Shown: positions 18,293 to 26,405 of the stretch, piece by piece
Layout of the letters: each line of letters starts with the position of its first letter
Position numbering within the stretch: the first letter of the stretch is position 1
From: Chloroflexota bacterium
GTDB lineage: Bacteria; Chloroflexota; Limnocylindria; Limnocylindrales; CSP1-4
Direction of reading: 5' to 3'
Assembly (NCBI GenBank): GCA_029778235.1
Contig: JAKOQS010000061.1
Coordinates: 1 to 35,939, forward strand
DNA: 35,939 bases
Notes under the pieces: generated by a model
What the model was told of the DNA's origin: nothing
Database searches by the model: none
Seen by the model: only the letters and a program-made list of their open reading frames with translations
Translations under genes and position numbers: made by a program

Positions 18293-19411
18293 TCAGCCCG
18301 CGGCCGCCGGGGCGCTGGGAGCAAGGGGGGCGGGACCCGCTGCCGTCGTCGTGGCCTCGACGGGCTCCGCGTCGCCCTGGGCCTCGAGCCACCGCTCGGC
18401 GTCGATGGCGGCCCGGGCGCCCTCGCCCGCGGCCGTCACCGCCTGCCGGTAGTGCGGGTCGTCGACGTCGCCCGCCACGAAGACCCCGGGGATCCCCGCG
18501 CCAGAGTGCTCGTGGGCCCTGAGGTAGCCCTTCTCGTCCACGTCCAGCCAGCCGCGGAAGACCTCCGTGTTGGGACGATGGCCGATCGCGACGAAGACGC
18601 CGTCGACGGCGACGTCACGCTCCTCGCCGCTCCGCGAGTCGCGGAGCCGGATGCCCTCGACCTTCTCGCCGCCGAGGACGGCGGCGACCTGCGAGTTCCA
18701 CTCGACCGTGATCTTCGGGTCCCGGAGAGCCCGGTCCTGCATGATCCGGCTCCCCCGGAACTCGTCGCGCCGGACGATCATCCGGACGGTCCGGGCGAAC
18801 CGGGTGAGGTAGAGCGCCTCCTCGAGAGCCGTGTCACCGCCGCCGATCACGGCGATGTCCTGGTCGCGGAAGAAGAAGCCGTCGCAGGTGGCGCAGGCGG
18901 AGACCCCGCGGCCGCGAAGGCGCGTCTCGCTCTCCAGGCCCAGCCAGAGGGCGGATGCGCCCGTCGCCACGATGACCGCCCGCGCGCGGTACTCGACCCC
19001 GTCGGCCCAGAGGCGGAAGGGCCTGTCGGTGAGGTCCACGCGGTCCACGGCGACGTCGAGCACGCGGCTGCCGAAGCGCTCGGCCTGGGCGCGGAACCGC
19101 GCCATCAGCTCCGGGCCCTGGATCCCGTCGGGGAACCCGGGGTAGTTCTCCACGTCGCTGGTCAGCATCAGCTGGCCGCCCGGCTCGTGTCCCGCGAGCA
19201 CGATCGGCTCCAGGCCGGCGCGCGCGGCGTAGATGGCGGCCGTCAGTCCCGCCGGGCCGGAGCCGACGATCACGAGCGTCGCATCGACGCTCGCACCGGC
19301 GCCTGCCGTCCGCACCACGGCCGACTCGGCCGCCTGGGCCGTCATCCCGCTGAAGTCGATCGCGAAGCCGCCGAACCCGCCGAGGCCGCCGCCCATCTTC
19401 TCTTCCGTCAT
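18293..19411 (-). CDS. trxB: Thioredoxin-disulfide reductase
   Basis: A 372-residue flavoprotein that passes NADPH electrons to thioredoxin. FAD-binding GSGPAGL (about residues 50-56), the redox pair CATC (C173 and C176), NADPH-binding GGGDTALEEA and the C-terminal FAD motif GVFVAGDVDDPHYRQ are all present. It is ~55 residues longer than usual because of an N-terminal Gly/Phe-rich stretch (GGGLGGFGGFAIDF) and an Ala/Pro-rich C-terminal tail. The ATG follows GGAGG. It heads a trxB-methyltransferase-exporter operon with its own promoter and a nearby palindrome. No thioredoxin gene is in view, so an alternative partner is possible. Confidence 0.93.
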   Translation of the reverse strand: MTEEKMGGGLGGFGGFAIDFSGMTAQAAESAVVRTAGAGASVDATLVIVGSGPAGLTAAIYAARAGLEPIVLAGHEPGGQLMLTSDVENYPGFPDGIQGPELMARFRAQAERFGSRVLDVAVDRVDLTDRPFRLWADGVEYRARAVIVATGASALWLGLESETRLRGRGVSACATCDGFFFRDQDIAVIGGGDTALEEALYLTRFARTVRMIVRRDEFRGSRIMQDRALRDPKITVEWNSQVAAVLGGEKVEGIRLRDSRSGEERDVAVDGVFVAIGHRPNTEVFRGWLDVDEKGYLRAHEHSGAGIPGVFVAGDVDDPHYRQAVTAAGEGARAAIDAERWLEAQGDAEPVEATTTAAGPAPLAPSAPAAAG

Positions 19412-19544: not shown

Positions 19545-20441
19545 TCAGAGCGCCCGTGCGGCGGGGATGATCCGCGTCCCGACGAGGTCGATCCACTGCT
19601 CCACGCCCCGCGAGGGGACGCCCAGGATCACGTGCTGCACGCCCGACTCCGCGAGCGCCGCGAGGTCGGCGACGAAGGCGTCGGGCTCGCGCTGGCCGTC
19701 GAGGACCTCCTGGCTCAGCCTGCCTGACTGGAGGTTGGTCCGTTCGATCTCGGCATAGGGCCGCCCCACGGCGTCGCAGTGCTCGCGCAGCACCGCGTAC
19801 TTGTGCGCGACCTGCGCCGGTCCGCCGAAGACGTTGCACGCATCGGCGTACTTCGCGACCAGCAGGAGCGTCTTCCGCTCGCCGCCGCCGCCCACCATGA
19901 TCGGGGGTCGGGGCCGGCTGATCGCCTGGGGGACGTTGAGCAGTCGCCCGGCCCGGACGTGGACTCCCTCGAAGGACGCCTCGGTCCCGCGCGGCCCGGA
20001 CCACATCCCGTGCGCGATCCGCAGCGTCTCCTCGAGCATATCGAAGCGCTCCGCGAGCGGCGGGAAATCGAACCCCAGGGCGAGCGACTCCTCCTCGTTC
20101 CACGCGGCGCCGATCCCCAGCGAGCCCCGACCGCCCGAGAGCACGTCGAGCGTGGTCGCCGCCTTCACCCACAGCCCCGGGGCGCGGTAGTGGACCCCGC
20201 CGACGAGCAGGCCCAGCCGGGCGCGCCGGGTCGCCGCGGCCAGGAACCCGAGGGTCGTCCACCCCTCGAGCATCGGGTCCTCGGCCGGACCCAGGCCGCG
20301 GATCTGGAAGAAGTGGTCCATCACCCAGATCGAGTCGAAGCCCGCGTCGTCCGCGAGGCGCGCGTACCGCGCCAGCGCCGGCCCGATCCCGTCGGTCGCA
20401 TCGGGCCAGTCGAACCTGTTGATCTGGAGGCCGATCCTCAC
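19545..20441 (-). CDS. LLM-class oxidoreductase, probably F420-dependent
   Basis: A 298-residue luciferase-like TIM barrel. Features are MRIGLQINRFDW at strand one, the substrate/cofactor segment IWVMDHFF, RARLGLLVGGVHYRAPGLWVK, SLGIGAAWNEEE and IMVGGGGERKTL, typical of F420-linked members. The start is GTG 20441 with GAGGG upstream. It lies 55 bp after cofE at the end of the F420 cluster, which supports F420 rather than FMN as cofactor. The same GGGGExKTL loop occurs in the LLM enzyme at 23961-24926, so the two may share ancestry. The substrate is unknown. Confidence 0.88.
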   Translation of the reverse strand: MRIGLQINRFDWPDATDGIGPALARYARLADDAGFDSIWVMDHFFQIRGLGPAEDPMLEGWTTLGFLAAATRRARLGLLVGGVHYRAPGLWVKAATTLDVLSGGRGSLGIGAAWNEEESLALGFDFPPLAERFDMLEETLRIAHGMWSGPRGTEASFEGVHVRAGRLLNVPQAISRPRPPIMVGGGGERKTLLLVAKYADACNVFGGPAQVAHKYAVLREHCDAVGRPYAEIERTNLQSGRLSQEVLDGQREPDAFVADLAALAESGVQHVILGVPSRGVEQWIDLVGTRIIPAARAL

Positions 20442-20496: not shown

Positions 20497-21471
20497 TCAC
20501 GGGAACAGGTCGAAGCGGGCCGGCATGACGACGTCTGCGATCGAGGCCTCGGCTCGCACGGGCCGAGCTCCCCGGACGATCGCCGCCGGCCGGCCGGCGG
20601 ACTTGCCGAGGGCGAGCTCGGCCGCCGACGCGATCTCGTCGGCGACGGCGCGGCTCGTCGATCGCATCACGCGGCCGTCGGCGTCGGGGACGCCGCGCAG
20701 GTCCTCGACCGGCGACAGCCCGCTCACCCCGATCGCGACGTCCACGATCCCCCAGCGCCACGGGCGCCCGAAGCTGTCGGAGACGATGACCGGCACGTCC
20801 AGGCCGTGTGCGTCCCGGACGGCCGCGCGGATGCGAGCGGCCGACGCGTCGGGGTCACGCGGCAGGAGGGTGACCAGGTCGCCGCTCCGCGGGCCCACGT
20901 TCGACGCGTCCACGCCGCTGTTGGCGAGGACGAACCCATGGTGCGTCTCCGTGACGATCACCCCGCGCTCCATGCGGACCACGCGGACCGCCTCGCGAAG
21001 GACGACCTCGACCTGGCGGGGATCGCGGTCCCAGCGCTCCCCGAACGCCACCGCCTCCGGGCGCGGCTCGACCGTCCGCAGGTCCACCACGGCGCCCTCT
21101 GCCTTGGAGACGACCTTCTGGGTCACCACCAGGACGTCGTCGGTTCGGAGCGGCAGGACGCCGGGCGTCGCCGCGATGGCTCGCACGACGAGCATGCCGA
21201 GGTCGACGCCCGGGACGACCTCACCGATCCCGCGGAGGGCCGTGATCTCGACGCGCCCGCCACCCGCCTCGGCCTCCCCCGGGGCATCCGAGCCCGGGGC
21301 AGGGTGGGGGAGCGTCCCGGCTGGCATCCCGGCCGGCTCCGATCCCGCGCCCTCGGCGCGGCCGCGTGCGTCGGCCGATCCCGCGCCCTCGGCGCGGCCG
21401 CGTGCGTCGGCCGATCCTGCGCCCGGCGCGCCCGCCCGGCGCCCGGCCCCGTCCAGGTCGTCGCGGCTCAT
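20497..21471 (-). CDS. cofE: Coenzyme F420-0:L-glutamate ligase
   Basis: A 324-residue protein whose residues ~73-324 are a complete CofE domain, seen in IGEVVPGVDLG, DVLVVTQKVVSKAEGAVVDL, ETHHGFVLANSGVDASNV and VSDSFGRPWRWGIVDVAIG. It adds glutamates to F420-0 using GTP. The ATG overlaps the cofC stop (ATGA), fixing the start. The first ~72 residues are a Gly/Ala low-complexity extension containing an exact 12-residue tandem repeat. Unlike mycobacterial FbiB there is no C-terminal nitroreductase domain, so dehydro-F420 reduction, if needed, must be done elsewhere. Confidence 0.94.
   Translation of the reverse strand: MSRDDLDGAGRRAGAPGAGSADARGRAEGAGSADARGRAEGAGSEPAGMPAGTLPHPAPGSDAPGEAEAGGGRVEITALRGIGEVVPGVDLGMLVVRAIAATPGVLPLRTDDVLVVTQKVVSKAEGAVVDLRTVEPRPEAVAFGERWDRDPRQVEVVLREAVRVVRMERGVIVTETHHGFVLANSGVDASNVGPRSGDLVTLLPRDPDASAARIRAAVRDAHGLDVPVIVSDSFGRPWRWGIVDVAIGVSGLSPVEDLRGVPDADGRVMRSTSRAVADEIASAAELALGKSAGRPAAIVRGARPVRAEASIADVVMPARFDLFP
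21341..21412 (-). repeat. 36-bp exact tandem duplication inside cofE
   Basis: Two identical 36-bp units (21341-21376 and 21377-21412), followed by a diverging start of a third. The unit is 12 codons, so copy changes keep the frame; it encodes Ala/Gly/Arg-rich sequence in the N-terminal extension of CofE. Confidence 0.9.
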
Positions 21472-22169
21472 GCGTCGGCCGCTCCGCCGGCGCGCGCGCC
21501 GGCCGCGTCCGCGACTGCCTCGATCTCGGGCGCGGCCGCGAGATCCTCCGGCGTGTCGAGGTCAAGCGCGAGCGCCGATTCCACGTCGACGCACGCGGCC
21601 CCGGCGGTCCGGGCTGCTGCCGCATGGCGGCCGTGGCTGCCGGGCCCGAACGCGAACTCGATGGCGCGCGGCGGCGACACGAGGAGCGCGTTGGTCCCCT
21701 CGCCGGCGCGGTCCGGCACGATCGCCACGAGCGCCCGGCCCGGCTCGCACGCAGCGCGCGCGGCGGCCACGACCTCCGCGACCGCCGCCGCGGAGATCCG
21801 CGCCAGGTCGGTCGGGACGACCAGGACGGCCGTTGCGCCCTCCACGATCGCCCGTTCACGCGCCGTCCGCAGGTCCGCGATCAGGTCGTGTCCGCCAGCC
21901 GGCAGGGGCAGCGCGCCCGCGGCGACGGCCGCTGCGAGCGCGGCGGGGTCGTCGCTCGCCACGACGATCTCCGTGACGGCGCCGGCTGCCCGAGCCTCGA
22001 CGAGCGCCCGCAGCGTGCGCTCGGTGAGCCCGGCCGCGAGCGCGGCGCGCTCCTCCGGGTCGAGCGCCAGCGCGAGGCGCGTCTTCGCGCGCTCCAGGGT
22101 GCGCACGGGCACGAGCGCGACGATGCGCGAGAGGTCGGCCGCGGGGAGCGGCGGAGGTGCGGTCTCCAT
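21468..22169 (-). CDS. cofC: CofC/FbiD guanylyltransferase of F420 synthesis
   Basis: A 233-residue nucleotidyltransferase that activates 2-phospholactate or phosphoenolpyruvate with GTP for transfer to Fo. PVRTLERAKTRLA near the N-terminus carries the nucleotide-binding lysine, VPTDLARIS the metal-binding aspartate, and GTNALLVSPP plus FGPGSHGRH are the C-terminal family motifs. The substrate (phospholactate in archaea, phosphoenolpyruvate in mycobacteria) cannot be settled by eye. ATG 22169 has no Shine-Dalgarno but lies 7 nt after a TACCAT -10, so it may also be read from a leaderless message internal to the operon. Confidence 0.92.
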   Translation of the reverse strand: METAPPPLPAADLSRIVALVPVRTLERAKTRLALALDPEERAALAAGLTERTLRALVEARAAGAVTEIVVASDDPAALAAAVAAGALPLPAGGHDLIADLRTARERAIVEGATAVLVVPTDLARISAAAVAEVVAAARAACEPGRALVAIVPDRAGEGTNALLVSPPRAIEFAFGPGSHGRHAAAARTAGAACVDVESALALDLDTPEDLAAAPEIEAVADAAGARAGGAADA

Positions 22170-22176
22170 CGGCGCG

Positions 22177-22182
22177 ATGGTA
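22177..22182 (-). promoter_or_regulatory. -10 box for a possible leaderless cofC-cofE transcript
   Basis: TACCAT, preceded by GG, sits on the minus strand exactly 7 nt before the cofC ATG in the 37-bp cofD-cofC gap. A 6-bp GGCGGC/GCCGCC hairpin (22187-22201) lies just upstream of it and could separate the two transcripts. Confidence 0.5.
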
Positions 22183-22206
22183 CCGGGGCGGCGCGGCCGC
22201 CGGCCG

Positions 22207-23148
22207 TCAGCCCCCGTCGAGGGCGGCGAGCGTCTCGCGCGCCACGCGGGCGCGCGCGGCCGCGTCGCCCATGATCGTGTCGGTCACGAGCGCGCGCATC
22301 CCGAGCGACGCCACCTTGCCGGCGAGGTCCGCGTCCACCGCGTCGAGGACGAAGACGTCCACGAGGCCGGCGTACAGCCGTGCGACGCCCACCGCGCTCA
22401 CCTCGTGACCCAGGCTCGCGAGCATCCGGTCCGCGGGGCCCTTGAGGGCCTTGCCGCCCACGATGGGCGAGACCGCGGCCACCGGTACGCCTCGTGCGCG
22501 TGCCGCGCGCAGCGCGTCGCGGAGCGGCCGCACGGCCAGGATCGGCCCGATGCTGACGATCGGGTTCGAGGGGCAGATGACGACCATGCTCGCCGCCTCG
22601 AGCGCCAGCAGGACCTCCGGGGTCGGCTCTGCGGTGTCCGCGCCGTCGAAGCTCACGGCCCGCACGTCGGGTGCCTGGCGCAGCCGGACGAAGTAGTCCT
22701 GGAAGTCGAGCCAGCCATCGTCCGACAGCACGCGCGTCCGGACCGGGCTGTCCGCCATCGGCAGGATGCGCGTGGGCACCCCGAGCGCCCGCTGGATCTC
22801 CAGCGACACCTCCGTGAGCCGCGCACCGGCACGCAGGCGGGCGGTCCGCGCGATGTGCGTGGCCATGTCCCGGTCGCCCAGCCGGAACCAGGTCTCCTCC
22901 CCGAGGACCGCGAGGCGTTCCATCACGGCGAATGTCTCGCCGGCGATCCCCCAGCCCTGCGCCGGATCGGCGATCCCCGCGAGGGTGTACAGGACCGTGT
23001 CATGGTCCGGGCACACCAGCAGGCCGTGCCGCTCGGTGTCGTCAGCGGTGTTGACGACCACGACGAGGTCCCCGGCCGGGAGCGCGGCCTGGAGGCCCTC
23101 CGCCAGCCGGGCACCGCCGACGCCGCCCGCGAGCGCGACGACCGTCAT
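22207..23148 (-). CDS. cofD: CofD/FbiA 2-phospho-L-lactate transferase
   Basis: A 313-residue enzyme that joins the activated phospholactyl (or phosphoenolpyruvyl) group to Fo, giving F420-0 or dehydro-F420-0. The opening VALAGGVGGARLAEGL, the segment VVNTADDTERHGL and CPSNPIVSIGPILAV are family hallmarks, and length is normal. The ATG overlaps the stop of the preceding Ddn-type gene (ATGA). It is the first of the biosynthetic trio cofD-cofC-cofE. The Fo synthase (fbiC, or cofG and cofH) is not in the window. Confidence 0.95.
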   Translation of the reverse strand: MTVVALAGGVGGARLAEGLQAALPAGDLVVVVNTADDTERHGLLVCPDHDTVLYTLAGIADPAQGWGIAGETFAVMERLAVLGEETWFRLGDRDMATHIARTARLRAGARLTEVSLEIQRALGVPTRILPMADSPVRTRVLSDDGWLDFQDYFVRLRQAPDVRAVSFDGADTAEPTPEVLLALEAASMVVICPSNPIVSIGPILAVRPLRDALRAARARGVPVAAVSPIVGGKALKGPADRMLASLGHEVSAVGVARLYAGLVDVFVLDAVDADLAGKVASLGMRALVTDTIMGDAAARARVARETLAALDGG

Positions 23149-23582
23149 CGGACGGGCTCGCGCGGCGTGGCGTCCGGCCCCGCGGCCGCTTCCGCAGGGA
23201 CACCGCCGTCCTGCGTCTCCGTGGGCCGGAGCACGAAGACGTCAGTCCAGCTCGCGTCGCGGAAGTTGCGCGGCATCGACGCCACGAGCTCGGCGAGCGC
23301 CGTGTCGCGGTCAGCTCCGCTCTGGGCGGCCGCCACGTACGCGTGCCGGCGGCCCCGGATCGTGAGGGTGCACGCCGGATGAGCACGCAGGTTCGCGGCC
23401 CACGCGCGACCGGTCCCGCCGGCGGCGATGAGGACAGAACCGTCCGCACGCTGAAGGAAGCCCACCGCAGCAGTCCGCGGGAGGCCGCTCCGGGCCCCGG
23501 TCGTGCCGAGGCTCGCGACCCAGCCCATGCGGACCATGAACGCACCGCCGACCGCGTTGAAGGCCCGGCCGATCCGGTTCAT
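23145..23582 (-). CDS. Deazaflavin-dependent nitroreductase (Ddn) family protein, second of a pair
   Basis: A 145-residue protein of the F420H2-dependent split-barrel (FDOR-A/Ddn) group. It opens MNRIGRAFNAVGGAFM, then shows the family's TTGARSGLPRTAAVGFLQRADG, AWAANLRAHPACTL and a C-terminal FVLRPTE. Such enzymes reduce nitroimidazoles, quinones or similar compounds. The ATG overlaps the stop of the related upstream gene and its stop overlaps the cofD start, so three genes are tightly coupled. A ~25-residue Ala/Pro-rich tail is added. The physiological substrate is unknown. Confidence 0.88.
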   Translation of the reverse strand: MNRIGRAFNAVGGAFMVRMGWVASLGTTGARSGLPRTAAVGFLQRADGSVLIAAGGTGRAWAANLRAHPACTLTIRGRRHAYVAAAQSGADRDTALAELVASMPRNFRDASWTDVFVLRPTETQDGGVPAEAAAGPDATPREPVR

Positions 23583-23941
23583 CCGACGGACCGCGCGGGT
23601 TCGAGCACGAAGGTCCGGCCGCCCTTCGGCGTGTTCGCCCCGTAGACCATCTCGAGCGCCTCGAGCGCCTCGTCGCGCTCGGCCCCGGTCACCTCGCGCG
23701 CGACGTAGGCGCGCTCGACGCCACGGATCTCGTAGCGACATGCGGGATCGGCGACGAGGTTGTACGGCCACTGCGTGGACCGATGGGCAGCCCCAATCAC
23801 GAGGCTGCCGTCGGCGCGCGAGGCGAACCCCGTGTGCGTGCGGCGTGTCTCGCCGGTCCGGGCTCCCGTCGTCTCGAGGATCCCGAGGTCGCCTCGCTCC
23901 AGCGCGGAGCCGACCCACGGGTCGTGGAAGTCGTCCGACAT
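23579..23941 (-). CDS. Deazaflavin-dependent nitroreductase (Ddn) family protein, first of a pair
   Basis: A 120-residue split-barrel protein with ETTGARTGETRRTHTGFASRADG, PYNLVADPACRYEI and a short C-terminal strand ending FVLEPARS, the same pattern as the following gene, so the pair probably arose by duplication. Lacking the N-terminal helix of canonical Ddn, it may be cytoplasmic and soluble. It overlaps the next gene by ATGA and follows the LLM gene by 19 bp. F420 use is inferred from family and neighbourhood. Confidence 0.88.
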   Translation of the reverse strand: MSDDFHDPWVGSALERGDLGILETTGARTGETRRTHTGFASRADGSLVIGAAHRSTQWPYNLVADPACRYEIRGVERAYVAREVTGAERDEALEALEMVYGANTPKGGRTFVLEPARSVG

Positions 23942-23960
23942 CGTCCTCCCTCCGCCCGGC

Positions 23961-24926
23961 TCAGGCGCCGGCGACCAGGCGGCGCAGCTCCGGCAGTCGC
24001 TCGATCGTCTCGCGGTCGAACGGACCGGCGAGATCGGGGATCAGGTGGGTGAACCCCAGCTCCAGGTACGGCCGCCACACCTCGGCCGCGACCTCCTCCG
24101 GCCCGAGCATGTCGAAGCCCGGGTTCTCCGCGGACGTCTCCCCGTGGCGGGCGAGCGATGCGGCGAGGACGCGCCGTGCCTCCGCCTGGTCGTCGCGGAT
24201 GACGCAATAGGGGAAGAGCGTGAACTCGATCTCCCCGGGCTCGCGGCCGATCTCGCCGCAGTATCCGGCGAGCACGTCCACCTTCCGCCGCAGCGTCTCC
24301 AGGGAGCCACCCACGTTCCACCCGTCCGCGTACCGTGCGACGGTCCGCAGCGTCTTCTTCTCGCCTCCACCCCCGATCATGATCGGCAGGCGACCTGGCC
24401 CACGCACCGGGAGCGGCGCGTGGCGCAGCGCGTCGAACCGGTACGCCCCGTCCTCGGGCGACGTGACGGCCTCGCCCCGGAAGAGCGCCCGCTGAGCGGC
24501 CACGGCCTCGTCGAGCCGGTCGAGTCGCTCCCCGAATCCCGACCCGAAGTCGATCCCGTGGCGTGCGTGCTCGTGGGCGAACCAGGCGCCGCCGATGCCC
24601 AGCCACGCGCGGCCGGCCGTGATGTGGTCGACCGTCACGGCCATCTTGGCGGTCAGCCCCGGGTTCCGGAAGGTGTTGGCGCCGACCATCAGCCCCACCG
24701 TGGCGCGGGTCGTCAGGGCCCCCCACGCGGCGATCGTCGTCCAGCCCTCGTAGATCGGCTGGCCTGGGTCGCCCACGATCGCGTGGAGGTGGTCCCACGT
24801 CCAGAGCGAGTCGAGCCCCACCGAGTCGGCGAGGACGGCCGCATCGCGCAGGTCCGCCCAGTCGACGCCCTGCGGCCAGAGGAGCACGCCGACGCGGACG
24901 GGATGTCGACGCACGGAGGCGCTCAC
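23961..24926 (-). CDS. LLM-class F420-dependent oxidoreductase
   Basis: A 321-residue TIM-barrel enzyme. It opens VRVGVLLWPQGVDWADL, then WTWDHLHAIVG, TVGLMVGANTFRNPGLTAKMA, WLGIGGAWFAHEH and IMIGGGGEKKTLRTVARYAD, typical of F420-linked LLM proteins. The GTG start overlaps the stop of the FGD-like gene (GTGA). The loop IGGGGEKKTL is shared with the LLM enzyme at 19545-20441. The substrate is unknown; its place between an FGD-like enzyme and Ddn proteins suggests that one supplies F420H2 to the others. Confidence 0.88.
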   Translation of the reverse strand: MSASVRRHPVRVGVLLWPQGVDWADLRDAAVLADSVGLDSLWTWDHLHAIVGDPGQPIYEGWTTIAAWGALTTRATVGLMVGANTFRNPGLTAKMAVTVDHITAGRAWLGIGGAWFAHEHARHGIDFGSGFGERLDRLDEAVAAQRALFRGEAVTSPEDGAYRFDALRHAPLPVRGPGRLPIMIGGGGEKKTLRTVARYADGWNVGGSLETLRRKVDVLAGYCGEIGREPGEIEFTLFPYCVIRDDQAEARRVLAASLARHGETSAENPGFDMLGPEEVAAEVWRPYLELGFTHLIPDLAGPFDRETIERLPELRRLVAGA

Positions 24927-25912
24927 CGGGTGAGCTTCGGGAGCACGTCCCGCCCGAAGACCTCGATCCACTCGCGCTGGTTCCGACCCACGTTGTGCAG
25001 GTAGACCTGGTCGAACCCGAGGTCGAGCAGCTTCTGGATGTACGCGCGGTGGACCTCGGGGTCTTCGCTGATGACCATCCGCCCCTCGAAGTCCTCGGGC
25101 CGGACGAGCTTCGCCATGGCCGCGAAGTCGAACGGCGAGCGGATGTCCTGCTTGGGGAACTTCATCCCGCCGTTGGGCCACTCGACCATCGCGTCGCGGA
25201 GGGCCTCCTCGTACGTGGGCGCCCACGCGAGGTGCAGCTGGAGGATGCGCGGCATGGTCGTCGGGTCCTTGCCCGCGGACCGCGCGCCCTCCTCGAAGCT
25301 GCGGAAGACCGTGTCGATCTTCTCCTCGACCGCCCCGACGGTGATGATCCCGTCGCACAGCTCGCCGGTCTTCTTCGCCGTGTACGGGCCCGCTGTGGCC
25401 ACGTAGATGGGCGGCGGCACGTCGGGAAGCGTCCAGAGCCGGGTCGTCTCGAGCCGATGCCACCGACCGTCGTGCTTGACGTCCTTGCCGGTGAACAGCT
25501 TCCGGATGATATCGATCGACTCGAGCATCCGGGCGATGCGCTCGGGGGTCTCTGGCCAGTAGCCGCCGACGACGTGCTCGTTGAGGGCCTCGCCGGATCC
25601 GAGGCCCAGCCAGAAGCGATCCGGGTAGGCGGCCGCGAGCGATGCGGAGGCCTGCGCCACGGTGGCGGGATGCATCCGGTAGCCGGGGCACGTGACGCCC
25701 GGGCCGAAGTCACCCGTGGTGCGCTCGCCGATCGCGGCCATCACCGTCCACACGAACGGGGCCTGGCCCTGCTGCGGGACCCAGGGCTGGAAGTGGTCGG
25801 CCGCCATGACGCCGTCGAAGCCGGCGGCCTCCGCCGCGACGCAGTAGTCCACGACCTCGCGCGGCCCGAACTGCTCGAGCATCGCCGCGTACCCGACCTT
25901 CGCCCTGCTCAT
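24923..25912 (-). CDS. F420-dependent glucose-6-phosphate dehydrogenase-like LLM enzyme
   Basis: A 329-residue enzyme that aligns well by eye with mycobacterial FGD1 (336 residues). KVGYAAMLEQFGPRE, the catalytic-region motif DHFQPW (His and Trp conserved), GSGEALNEHVVG (with the catalytic-region Glu) and a conserved Lys in GPYTAKKTG are present. Divergence is greater in the part that binds the sugar phosphate, so it may use another alcohol (as in hydroxymycolate or secondary-alcohol F420 dehydrogenases). GGGAGG precedes ATG 25912, which I preferred to a start 15 codons earlier. Likely role: recharging F420 to F420H2 for the cluster. Confidence 0.88.
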   Translation of the reverse strand: MSRAKVGYAAMLEQFGPREVVDYCVAAEAAGFDGVMAADHFQPWVPQQGQAPFVWTVMAAIGERTTGDFGPGVTCPGYRMHPATVAQASASLAAAYPDRFWLGLGSGEALNEHVVGGYWPETPERIARMLESIDIIRKLFTGKDVKHDGRWHRLETTRLWTLPDVPPPIYVATAGPYTAKKTGELCDGIITVGAVEEKIDTVFRSFEEGARSAGKDPTTMPRILQLHLAWAPTYEEALRDAMVEWPNGGMKFPKQDIRSPFDFAAMAKLVRPEDFEGRMVISEDPEVHRAYIQKLLDLGFDQVYLHNVGRNQREWIEVFGRDVLPKLTR

Positions 25913-25982
25913 GCCGCCTCCCGCGCGGGCCGTCGGCCGCACCGGCCGCCCCGCCATCGCTCTCGCCCGCCCCCGCGGGCCT

Positions 25983-26405
25983 TCACAGGTCCTGCTGCAC
26001 GGCGTCGGGCAGCAGCCGGAAGCTGACCCGGTGCTGCCGCCGGAACCGGTCGCGGATCAGGCTCTCCGCATGCTCCGGCTCCCCCGCGTGGTAGCGACGC
26101 GCCATCGCCGCGATGTCCGCCTGCGCCCGCTCCTGGTCGTCGTCGACCTCCACGGTCCCCGAGACGCCCACGTATCGGTAGCCGTCCTCGACCATCACGG
26201 AGACGCGCGGATCGCGCCGGAGGTCCGCGGGCCACCGCCGGCCGTCCGCGCTGTTGAGCACGACGACGTCGCCCTCGAGCGCGTACCACGCGACCGCCTG
26301 GTGCGGCATCCCGTCCGCGCCGACGGTGGCGACCACGGCGAACCGCTCCGCCGCGAGGAACGCGCGGGCCTCGGGCGAGAGAGCGGCGGGTGATCGATCC
26401 GGCAT
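25983..26405 (-). CDS. PPOX-class split-barrel protein, probably F420-dependent
   Basis: A 140-residue FDOR-B/pyridoxamine-oxidase-like protein. Features are FAVVATVGADGMPHQAVAWY, DVVVLNSADGRRWPADLRRDPRVSVMVEDG, a strand GTVEVDDDQ and the C-terminal HRVSFRLLPD. Members bind F420, FMN or haem and act as reductases; the neighbours favour F420. GGAGGG precedes ATG 26405. It is the first gene of the F420 cluster, 70 bp before the FGD-like gene, behind a GGTACCAT promoter element. Confidence 0.85.
   Translation of the reverse strand: MPDRSPAALSPEARAFLAAERFAVVATVGADGMPHQAVAWYALEGDVVVLNSADGRRWPADLRRDPRVSVMVEDGYRYVGVSGTVEVDDDQERAQADIAAMARRYHAGEPEHAESLIRDRFRRQHRVSFRLLPDAVQQDL

Follow-up and report, generated by a model that had tools for sequence, protein, structure and literature searches.

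The 35,939-nucleotide window examined here is the whole of contig C187 of a Chloroflexota metagenome-assembled genome (MAG; 366 contigs totalling 3,698,339 bases, completeness 90.98%, contamination 7.8%), and its minus strand carries the F420 assembly genes cofD, cofC and cofE, clustered with putative F420-using oxidoreductases. We consider it fairly probable that this block is an F420-finishing operon working on salvaged FO, the ring portion of the cofactor, with CofC, CofD and CofE completing F420 without a reductase of the FbiB or FbiE type. Because most sampled relatives likewise lack ring-making genes, salvage of FO is suggested; most also share the reductase gap, and the two absences together point to uptake of the ring from the surroundings. 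The original prediction, made from the window alone, was right about both gaps, and neither is peculiar to this assembly.

No match to TIGR03551 (CofH) or TIGR03550 (CofG) was found in the genome at E ≤ 0.001, which extends to the whole assembly the lack of an FO synthase that had been reported for the cluster. This had been regarded as a secondary point; the absence itself was correct, and in our searches it is a wider pattern than the missing reductase. Among 61 related genomes, the window's own included, CofH occurs in five and CofG in the identical five, with CofD over its cut-off in 44. Across 399 Chloroflexota genomes at least 90% complete, with the best five candidates per genome scored, CofD passed its cut-off in 265 and CofH in 60. 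When CofD was instead counted at E ≤ 1e-30, fragments included (a proxy for the CofD cut-off gave 263 versus 265), 59 of 275 CofD-bearing genomes had CofH over its cut-off and 216 did not. A single genome (G285) has CofH with CofD below this threshold, and another (G111), with a partial CofH match of 337.6 bits beside a CofG-like match, is probably positive and was not counted. CofG was unmatched in 16 of 17 genomes without CofH over the cut-off (90–100% complete, nine of them single-contig) and reached 21.6 bits in the remaining one; it was found in all three CofH-positive controls. The CofH-less single-contig genomes G106 and G201 (loci L179 and L180) keep a cluster of cofE, FbiE, cofD, cofC and FGD-like genes.

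In a tree of 25 sequences, fbiC from the window's family falls into a single five-member clade with support 1.0; sequences in this tree mostly cluster by family, f7, f50 and f53 being the exceptions. In a CofD tree of 30 relatives-set genomes, the four fbiC bearers present require four changes. Either an ancestor with fbiC whose descendants lost it several times, or exchange of the gene inside the family, would fit this pattern. Because none of the five fbiC-bearing relatives has a strong FbiE or FbiB-C match, we treat the FO-synthase gap and the reductase gap as separate; in the phylum sample, a strong FbiE match is likewise missing from 30 of the 59 genomes that have both CofD and CofH.

The block runs from 26405 to 19545 on the minus strand, and every gene assignment in it except LLM2 passes a curated NCBIfam cut-off. 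In order of transcription, with scores in bits, the genes and their conserved neighbour are:

25983..26405, minus strand, PPOX-class F420-dependent oxidoreductase of the Rv1155 type; TIGR03618 88.7 (subfamily cut-off 79.05)
24923..25912, minus strand, FGD-like LLM-class F420 dehydrogenase; TIGR03557 293.1 (cut-off 210.4)
23961..24920, minus strand, LLM2, an LLM-class oxidoreductase with an uncertain start codon; best TIGR03856 197.5, below the cut-off of 243.7; PF00296 149.2
23579..23941, minus strand, Ddn-type protein 1; TIGR00026 59.5 (subfamily cut-off 46.35), PF04075 59.8
23145..23582, minus strand, Ddn-type protein 2, start taken from the reading frame; TIGR00026 61.2 (cut-off 46.35), PF04075 51.5
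22207..23148, minus strand, cofD, phospholactate/enolpyruvyl transferase to FO; TIGR01819 315.7 (equivalog cut-off 257.45)
21468..22169, minus strand, cofC guanylyltransferase; TIGR03552 123.9 (equivalog cut-off 105)
20497..21471, minus strand, cofE, single-domain F420-0:glutamate ligase, its start overlapping the cofC stop; TIGR01916 229.8 (equivalog cut-off 180.65)
19545..20441, minus strand, LLM1, an F420-dependent LLM oxidoreductase next after cofE; TIGR03560 271.5 (cut-off 231.4)
18293..19411, minus strand, thioredoxin-disulfide reductase, conserved neighbour of the block; TIGR01292 378.2 (cut-off 343.45)

The clustering of cofD, cofC and cofE with FGD-like, PPOX and two Ddn-type genes was thereby borne out. 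Two further LLM oxidoreductases had been listed with the FGD-like gene, and both are present; only LLM2 lies within 20497–26405, LLM1 being just outside. The FGD-like protein fails the FGD equivalog model TIGR03554 (225.4 against a cut-off of 420). From the first Ddn gene to cofE, neighbours share a few bases or are separated by at most 40, a spacing as expected in one operon. The nearest named CofD record is JALOOH010000190.1, at 84% identity; it and the other close named records come from Chloroflexi MAGs, of which L028 is labelled Candidatus Limnocylindrales, and from such labels we take the class to be Limnocylindria. CofE has an N-terminal extension of about 70 residues that is of low complexity and contains a repeated stretch (window 21262–21471, minus strand).

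In mycobacteria, dehydro-F420 is reduced by the C-terminal domain of FbiB. This nitroreductase domain is missing from the window's CofE, as had been predicted: Pfam gives F420_ligase only, and CofE fails the fused-FbiB model NF009810 (210.7 against a cut-off of 304). An FbiB-C profile search of the bin gave a sole strong match (251.9 bits; 249.3 on rescoring, marginally under the cut-off of 249.55) on contig C130 (L164:1-4061), whose 4,061 bases hold a fused FbiB (570.4 with NF009810), a truncated FbiA and part of an Rv-type mannose-1-phosphate guanylyltransferase. Were C130 a real, unlinked locus of the organism, its FbiB would carry out the reduction, fbiC would have been lost in an assembly gap and F420 synthesis would be ordinary. 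Its place in the same bin, its NF009810 score and a completeness of 91% favour this account, but we find it highly improbable: among the 61 genomes of the relatives set, the FbiB-C cut-off is passed only in the window's own bin, the contig carries a cut FbiA and a guanylyltransferase fragment while cofD and cofE are already present in the window in distinct versions (identity about 40%), and an assembly gap cannot account for the 56 genomes without CofH and CofG. Composition is weak evidence on the origin of C130. Tetranucleotide frequencies of C130 correlate with those of the window at 0.704, and those of 16 window pieces of equal length at 0.822–0.922; other bin stretches of 11.8 and 3.8 kb give 0.948 and 0.903, within or above that range. 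Because three further, shorter bin stretches also fall under it (0.675, 0.801 and 0.812), C130 does not stand far apart from the bin's short stretches. Composition alone was not deciding, and on FbiB-C distribution and gene content we did not accept C130 as a reductase locus native to the organism, judging it a probable actinobacterial contaminant in a bin with 7.8% contamination. A genome-wide FbiB-C check thus did return a match, and the reductase gap stands if C130 is set aside.

Stand-alone nitroreductases at most 9 kb from cofD in six Thermomicrobia-type loci (L083, L070, L086, L078, L048 and L090) score 104–123 bits to the C130 domain and served as a positive control. These six proteins and C130 itself formed the FbiE query alignment, with which the best seven first-look candidates per genome were scored in the 399 Chloroflexota genomes, presence being set at E ≤ 1e-40. 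FbiE was found in nearly all CofD-bearing genomes of some families (f14, 25/25; f19, 21/21; f44, 10/10; f8, 29/30), and strong matches were absent from those of others (f20, 0/21; f39, 0/12; f42, 0/7; f64, 0/5). The window's class gave one strong match in 56 genomes, namely C130, itself in the query alignment, and the window's own genome has no strong homologue besides this judged contaminant. Weak matches in 12 other class genomes (7.5e-13 to 1.2e-18) were rejected as FbiE, FbiB-C matches in the relatives set besides C130 reaching at most 44.6 bits versus 168.5 for a Thermomicrobium-type FbiE. Of the 20 largest gene clusters near cofD (4.5 kb each way), those that span the FbiE-less families are limited to cofC/cofE, cofD and antisense shadow frames. 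A nitroreductase on contig C342 has N- and C-terminal parts that match opposite strands (L165:868-1056 minus, 649-798 plus), an inversion or misassembly.

A sister family narrows the search further. The window belongs to family f1; f2 comprises genomes of 0.8–1.2 Mb in the same order, and f3–f5 are other families of the class. At E ≤ 0.001, PF00881 nitroreductases occur in 40 of the 61 relatives-set genomes and in 14 of 14 control genomes, and in none of the 19 f2 genomes, which are 59–92% complete. CofD is present in 14 of these 19 (ten over the cut-off, two just under, two in pieces). Twelve f2 loci from 12 genomes all have the order PPOX, FGD-like, cofD; cofC and cofE come next in 11, the remaining contig ending there, and a thioredoxin reductase follows in nine (L257–L261, L263, L264, L267 and L194), the other three contigs ending earlier. 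Because PF00881 was not found in f2 while the cof genes are present, dehydro-F420 reduction in this family, if it occurs, is probably not performed by a PF00881-family nitroreductase. An unlinked FbiB-C-like nitroreductase, one of the solutions originally proposed, accordingly found no support in f2 or, apart from C130, in any strong class match. Nine of the 12 f2 loci (L257–L260, L262, L263 and L265–L267) have an extra LLM-type gene upstream of PPOX, encoded on the other strand.

Gene neighbourhoods were compared across 48 named loci, whose class membership was judged from CofD identity and gene order rather than from a taxonomy search; loci were counted only with at least 3.5 kb on the relevant side, and presence was a tblastn match over set bit thresholds within 8 kb of cofD. 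Downstream, cofC and cofE occur in 38/38 loci, LLM1 in 37/38 and thioredoxin reductase in 32/38. Upstream, PPOX has the highest count of the five genes (27/32), with LLM2 in 16/32, the FGD-like gene in 14/32 and each Ddn gene in 1/32. Takeover of the reduction by a split-barrel protein of the cluster had been suggested, and the Ddn pair, at one locus in 32 for each gene, was rejected as a general reductase. L012 and L040 carry Ddn genes too and stand outside the denominator, their flanks being short. PPOX stays in contention as a dehydro-F420 reductase replacing FbiE: it is conserved near cofD in the class and in all 12 f2 loci, where PF00881 was not found. We nevertheless rate this specific assignment as unlikely, as PPOX also adjoins cofD in the FbiE-bearing loci L048 (Thermomicrobiales), L179 and L182, and the FbiE-less families f39, f64, f42 and f50 contribute nothing to the PPOX cluster near cofD.

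Residues in CofC and CofD bear on the side-chain precursor. We take D116, T148, G163, S166, D188 and D190 of FbiD to bind phosphoenolpyruvate (PEP) or magnesium, K17 to bind PEP, and D45 and D57 of FbiA to be metal ligands. The window's CofC keeps the equivalents of the first six and has Arg for K17. Among 64 distinct class CofC rows, D116 is kept in 62 (two gaps), T148 in 61 (two gaps, one Ser), S166 in 61 (three gaps), G163 in 60 (three gaps, one Glu), and D188 and D190 in 60 each (four gaps); position 17 is Arg in 53.

Were CofC and CofD to use 3-phosphoglycerate (3PG), the product would be 3PG-F420 and no reductase would be necessary, and CofC enzymes for this substrate are described as derived from those for 2-phospholactate or PEP (PMC8764529). 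The diagnostic Ser at FbiD position 163 is Gly in the window and appears in none of the 64 rows. We therefore rejected 3PG specificity, an explanation that has become scarcely credible. According to the same source, CofC is promiscuous, CofD filters the product and only cognate pairs are informative; because CofC alone does not decide, the choice between PEP and 2-phospholactate cannot be read from these residues.

The FbiA D45 and D57 equivalents are conserved in the window's CofD and invariant in 20 CofH-positive and 62 CofH-less rows, and with fixation set at 75% no column distinguishes these two groups, while at 60% a single column does. Mean CofD identity to archaeal and mycobacterial references shows no useful difference between groups. 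Because CofD rows are not separated by CofH status and the metal aspartates are invariant, the acceptor is probably still FO. This weighs on another account, in which CofD acts on a different flavin, such as riboflavin, giving an F420-like flavin without FO, or in which a further kind of FO synthase exists. In its favour, most CofD-bearing genomes of the phylum sample have no CofH over the cut-off, single-contig genomes without CofG among them, but the absence of any separating column at 75%, and partners (LLM, Ddn and PPOX) that belong to F420-type families, make it improbable. We give as little credence to its broader form, that most CofD-bearing Chloroflexota make no F420 from FO, either attaching the phosphate-linked polyglutamate tail to another flavin to yield an F420-like cofactor not yet described or having an FO-forming enzyme unrelated to CofG and CofH, and that the window's class finishes the side chain without a nitroreductase-family enzyme. 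Position 58 of CofD (FbiA numbering), between the two conserved Asp residues, is His in 44 of 70 distinct class rows and Leu in 11; it is Leu in 23 of 33 FbiE-bearing rows.

On the favoured reading, a finishing operon fed by salvaged FO, the ring would be acquired from the environment, an uptake we infer. By homology, CofC would activate a three-carbon phosphate with GTP, CofD would couple it to FO and the single-domain CofE would append the glutamate tail; the FGD-like enzyme would then put hydride on F420, and the PPOX, LLM and Ddn proteins would spend it. Reduction of dehydro-F420 in this organism would not fall to an enzyme of the FbiB-C/FbiE family. For the side-chain route we infer three possibilities. 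Our first choice, held tentatively and as slightly short of probable, is the archaeal-style option that had also been proposed originally: CofC and CofD would take 2-phospholactate, which makes a reduction step superfluous. Reduction by an enzyme from outside the FbiB-C/FbiE family, with members of the conserved block such as PPOX as the likeliest candidates, is possible though rather unlikely, and use of dehydro-F420 in its unreduced form is distinctly unlikely. An uncharacterized reductase, 'CofX', has been predicted for archaea and some bacteria (PMC6450877).

Salvage is favoured by the typical occurrence of FO in culture supernatants of F420 producers (PMC11917521). Several points weigh against the reading as a whole. 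No FO transporter has been identified for the proposed uptake, and F420 in this lineage is predicted from gene content. The absence of CofG and CofH rests on profile searches, which would miss an unrelated FO-making enzyme; fbiC is present in five of the 61 relatives-set genomes; and the phylum searches scored only the best five (CofD/CofH) or seven (FbiE) first-look candidates per genome. The f2 genomes are at most 92% complete and as little as 59%, and the window's MAG is 91% complete. C130 may be native to the organism, given how little weight composition carries. Finally, the choice between PEP and 2-phospholactate is not fixed by CofC alone (PMC8764529).

Known systems resemble the window's in part. 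FbiE is credited to Thermomicrobium roseum, and the Thermomicrobia pathway of Braga et al. 2020, as described in PMC8498797, is likewise from Chloroflexota, with cofD and cofC genes and a reductase unfused to CofE; however, Thermomicrobia-type loci have FbiE at most 9 kb from cofD (L083, L070, L078, L086 and L048), whereas the window's class has no strong counterpart besides C130. The archaeal CofC-CofD-CofE pathway from 2-phospholactate shares a single-domain CofE without a nitroreductase domain, but archaeal F420 producers are described as having CofG and CofH (PMC8498797), to which the window's genome has no matches. The 3PG-F420 pathway of Mycetohabitans (PMC8764529) likewise makes a reductase unnecessary, but the window's CofC lacks its diagnostic Ser. 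The mycobacterial FbiABCD system has homologues here of FbiA, FbiD and the N-terminal part of FbiB, together with F420-dependent LLM, Ddn and PPOX families; it differs in that the FbiB reductase domain is not in the window's cluster and FbiC was not found (C130 set aside).

For three species in culture, Roseiflexus castenholzii, Chloroflexus aurantiacus and C. aggregans, all Chloroflexi, published work already notes that FO synthase genes are lacking (PMC9178010), as they are in the window's genome. The context given there is the photolyase antenna in those three species, and not cofCDE or the window's class. FO genes and F420 genes are described as co-occurring in the majority of organisms (PMC8498797). 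Among the papers searched, judged mostly by titles and the starts of abstracts, none dealt with FO auxotrophy or FO salvage by Chloroflexota that assemble F420, nor did any combine 'F420' with 'Limnocylindr'.

In the Chloroflexota sampled here, CofD without CofH is commoner than CofD with it (216 of 275 genomes). With its small genomes, cof genes and, in f2, no PF00881 protein found, the window's class offers a test bed for how dehydro-F420 is avoided or reduced outside FbiB and FbiE. If FO is salvaged, it would be a shared vitamin, and dependence on F420 would be as much a matter of the community as of the genome.

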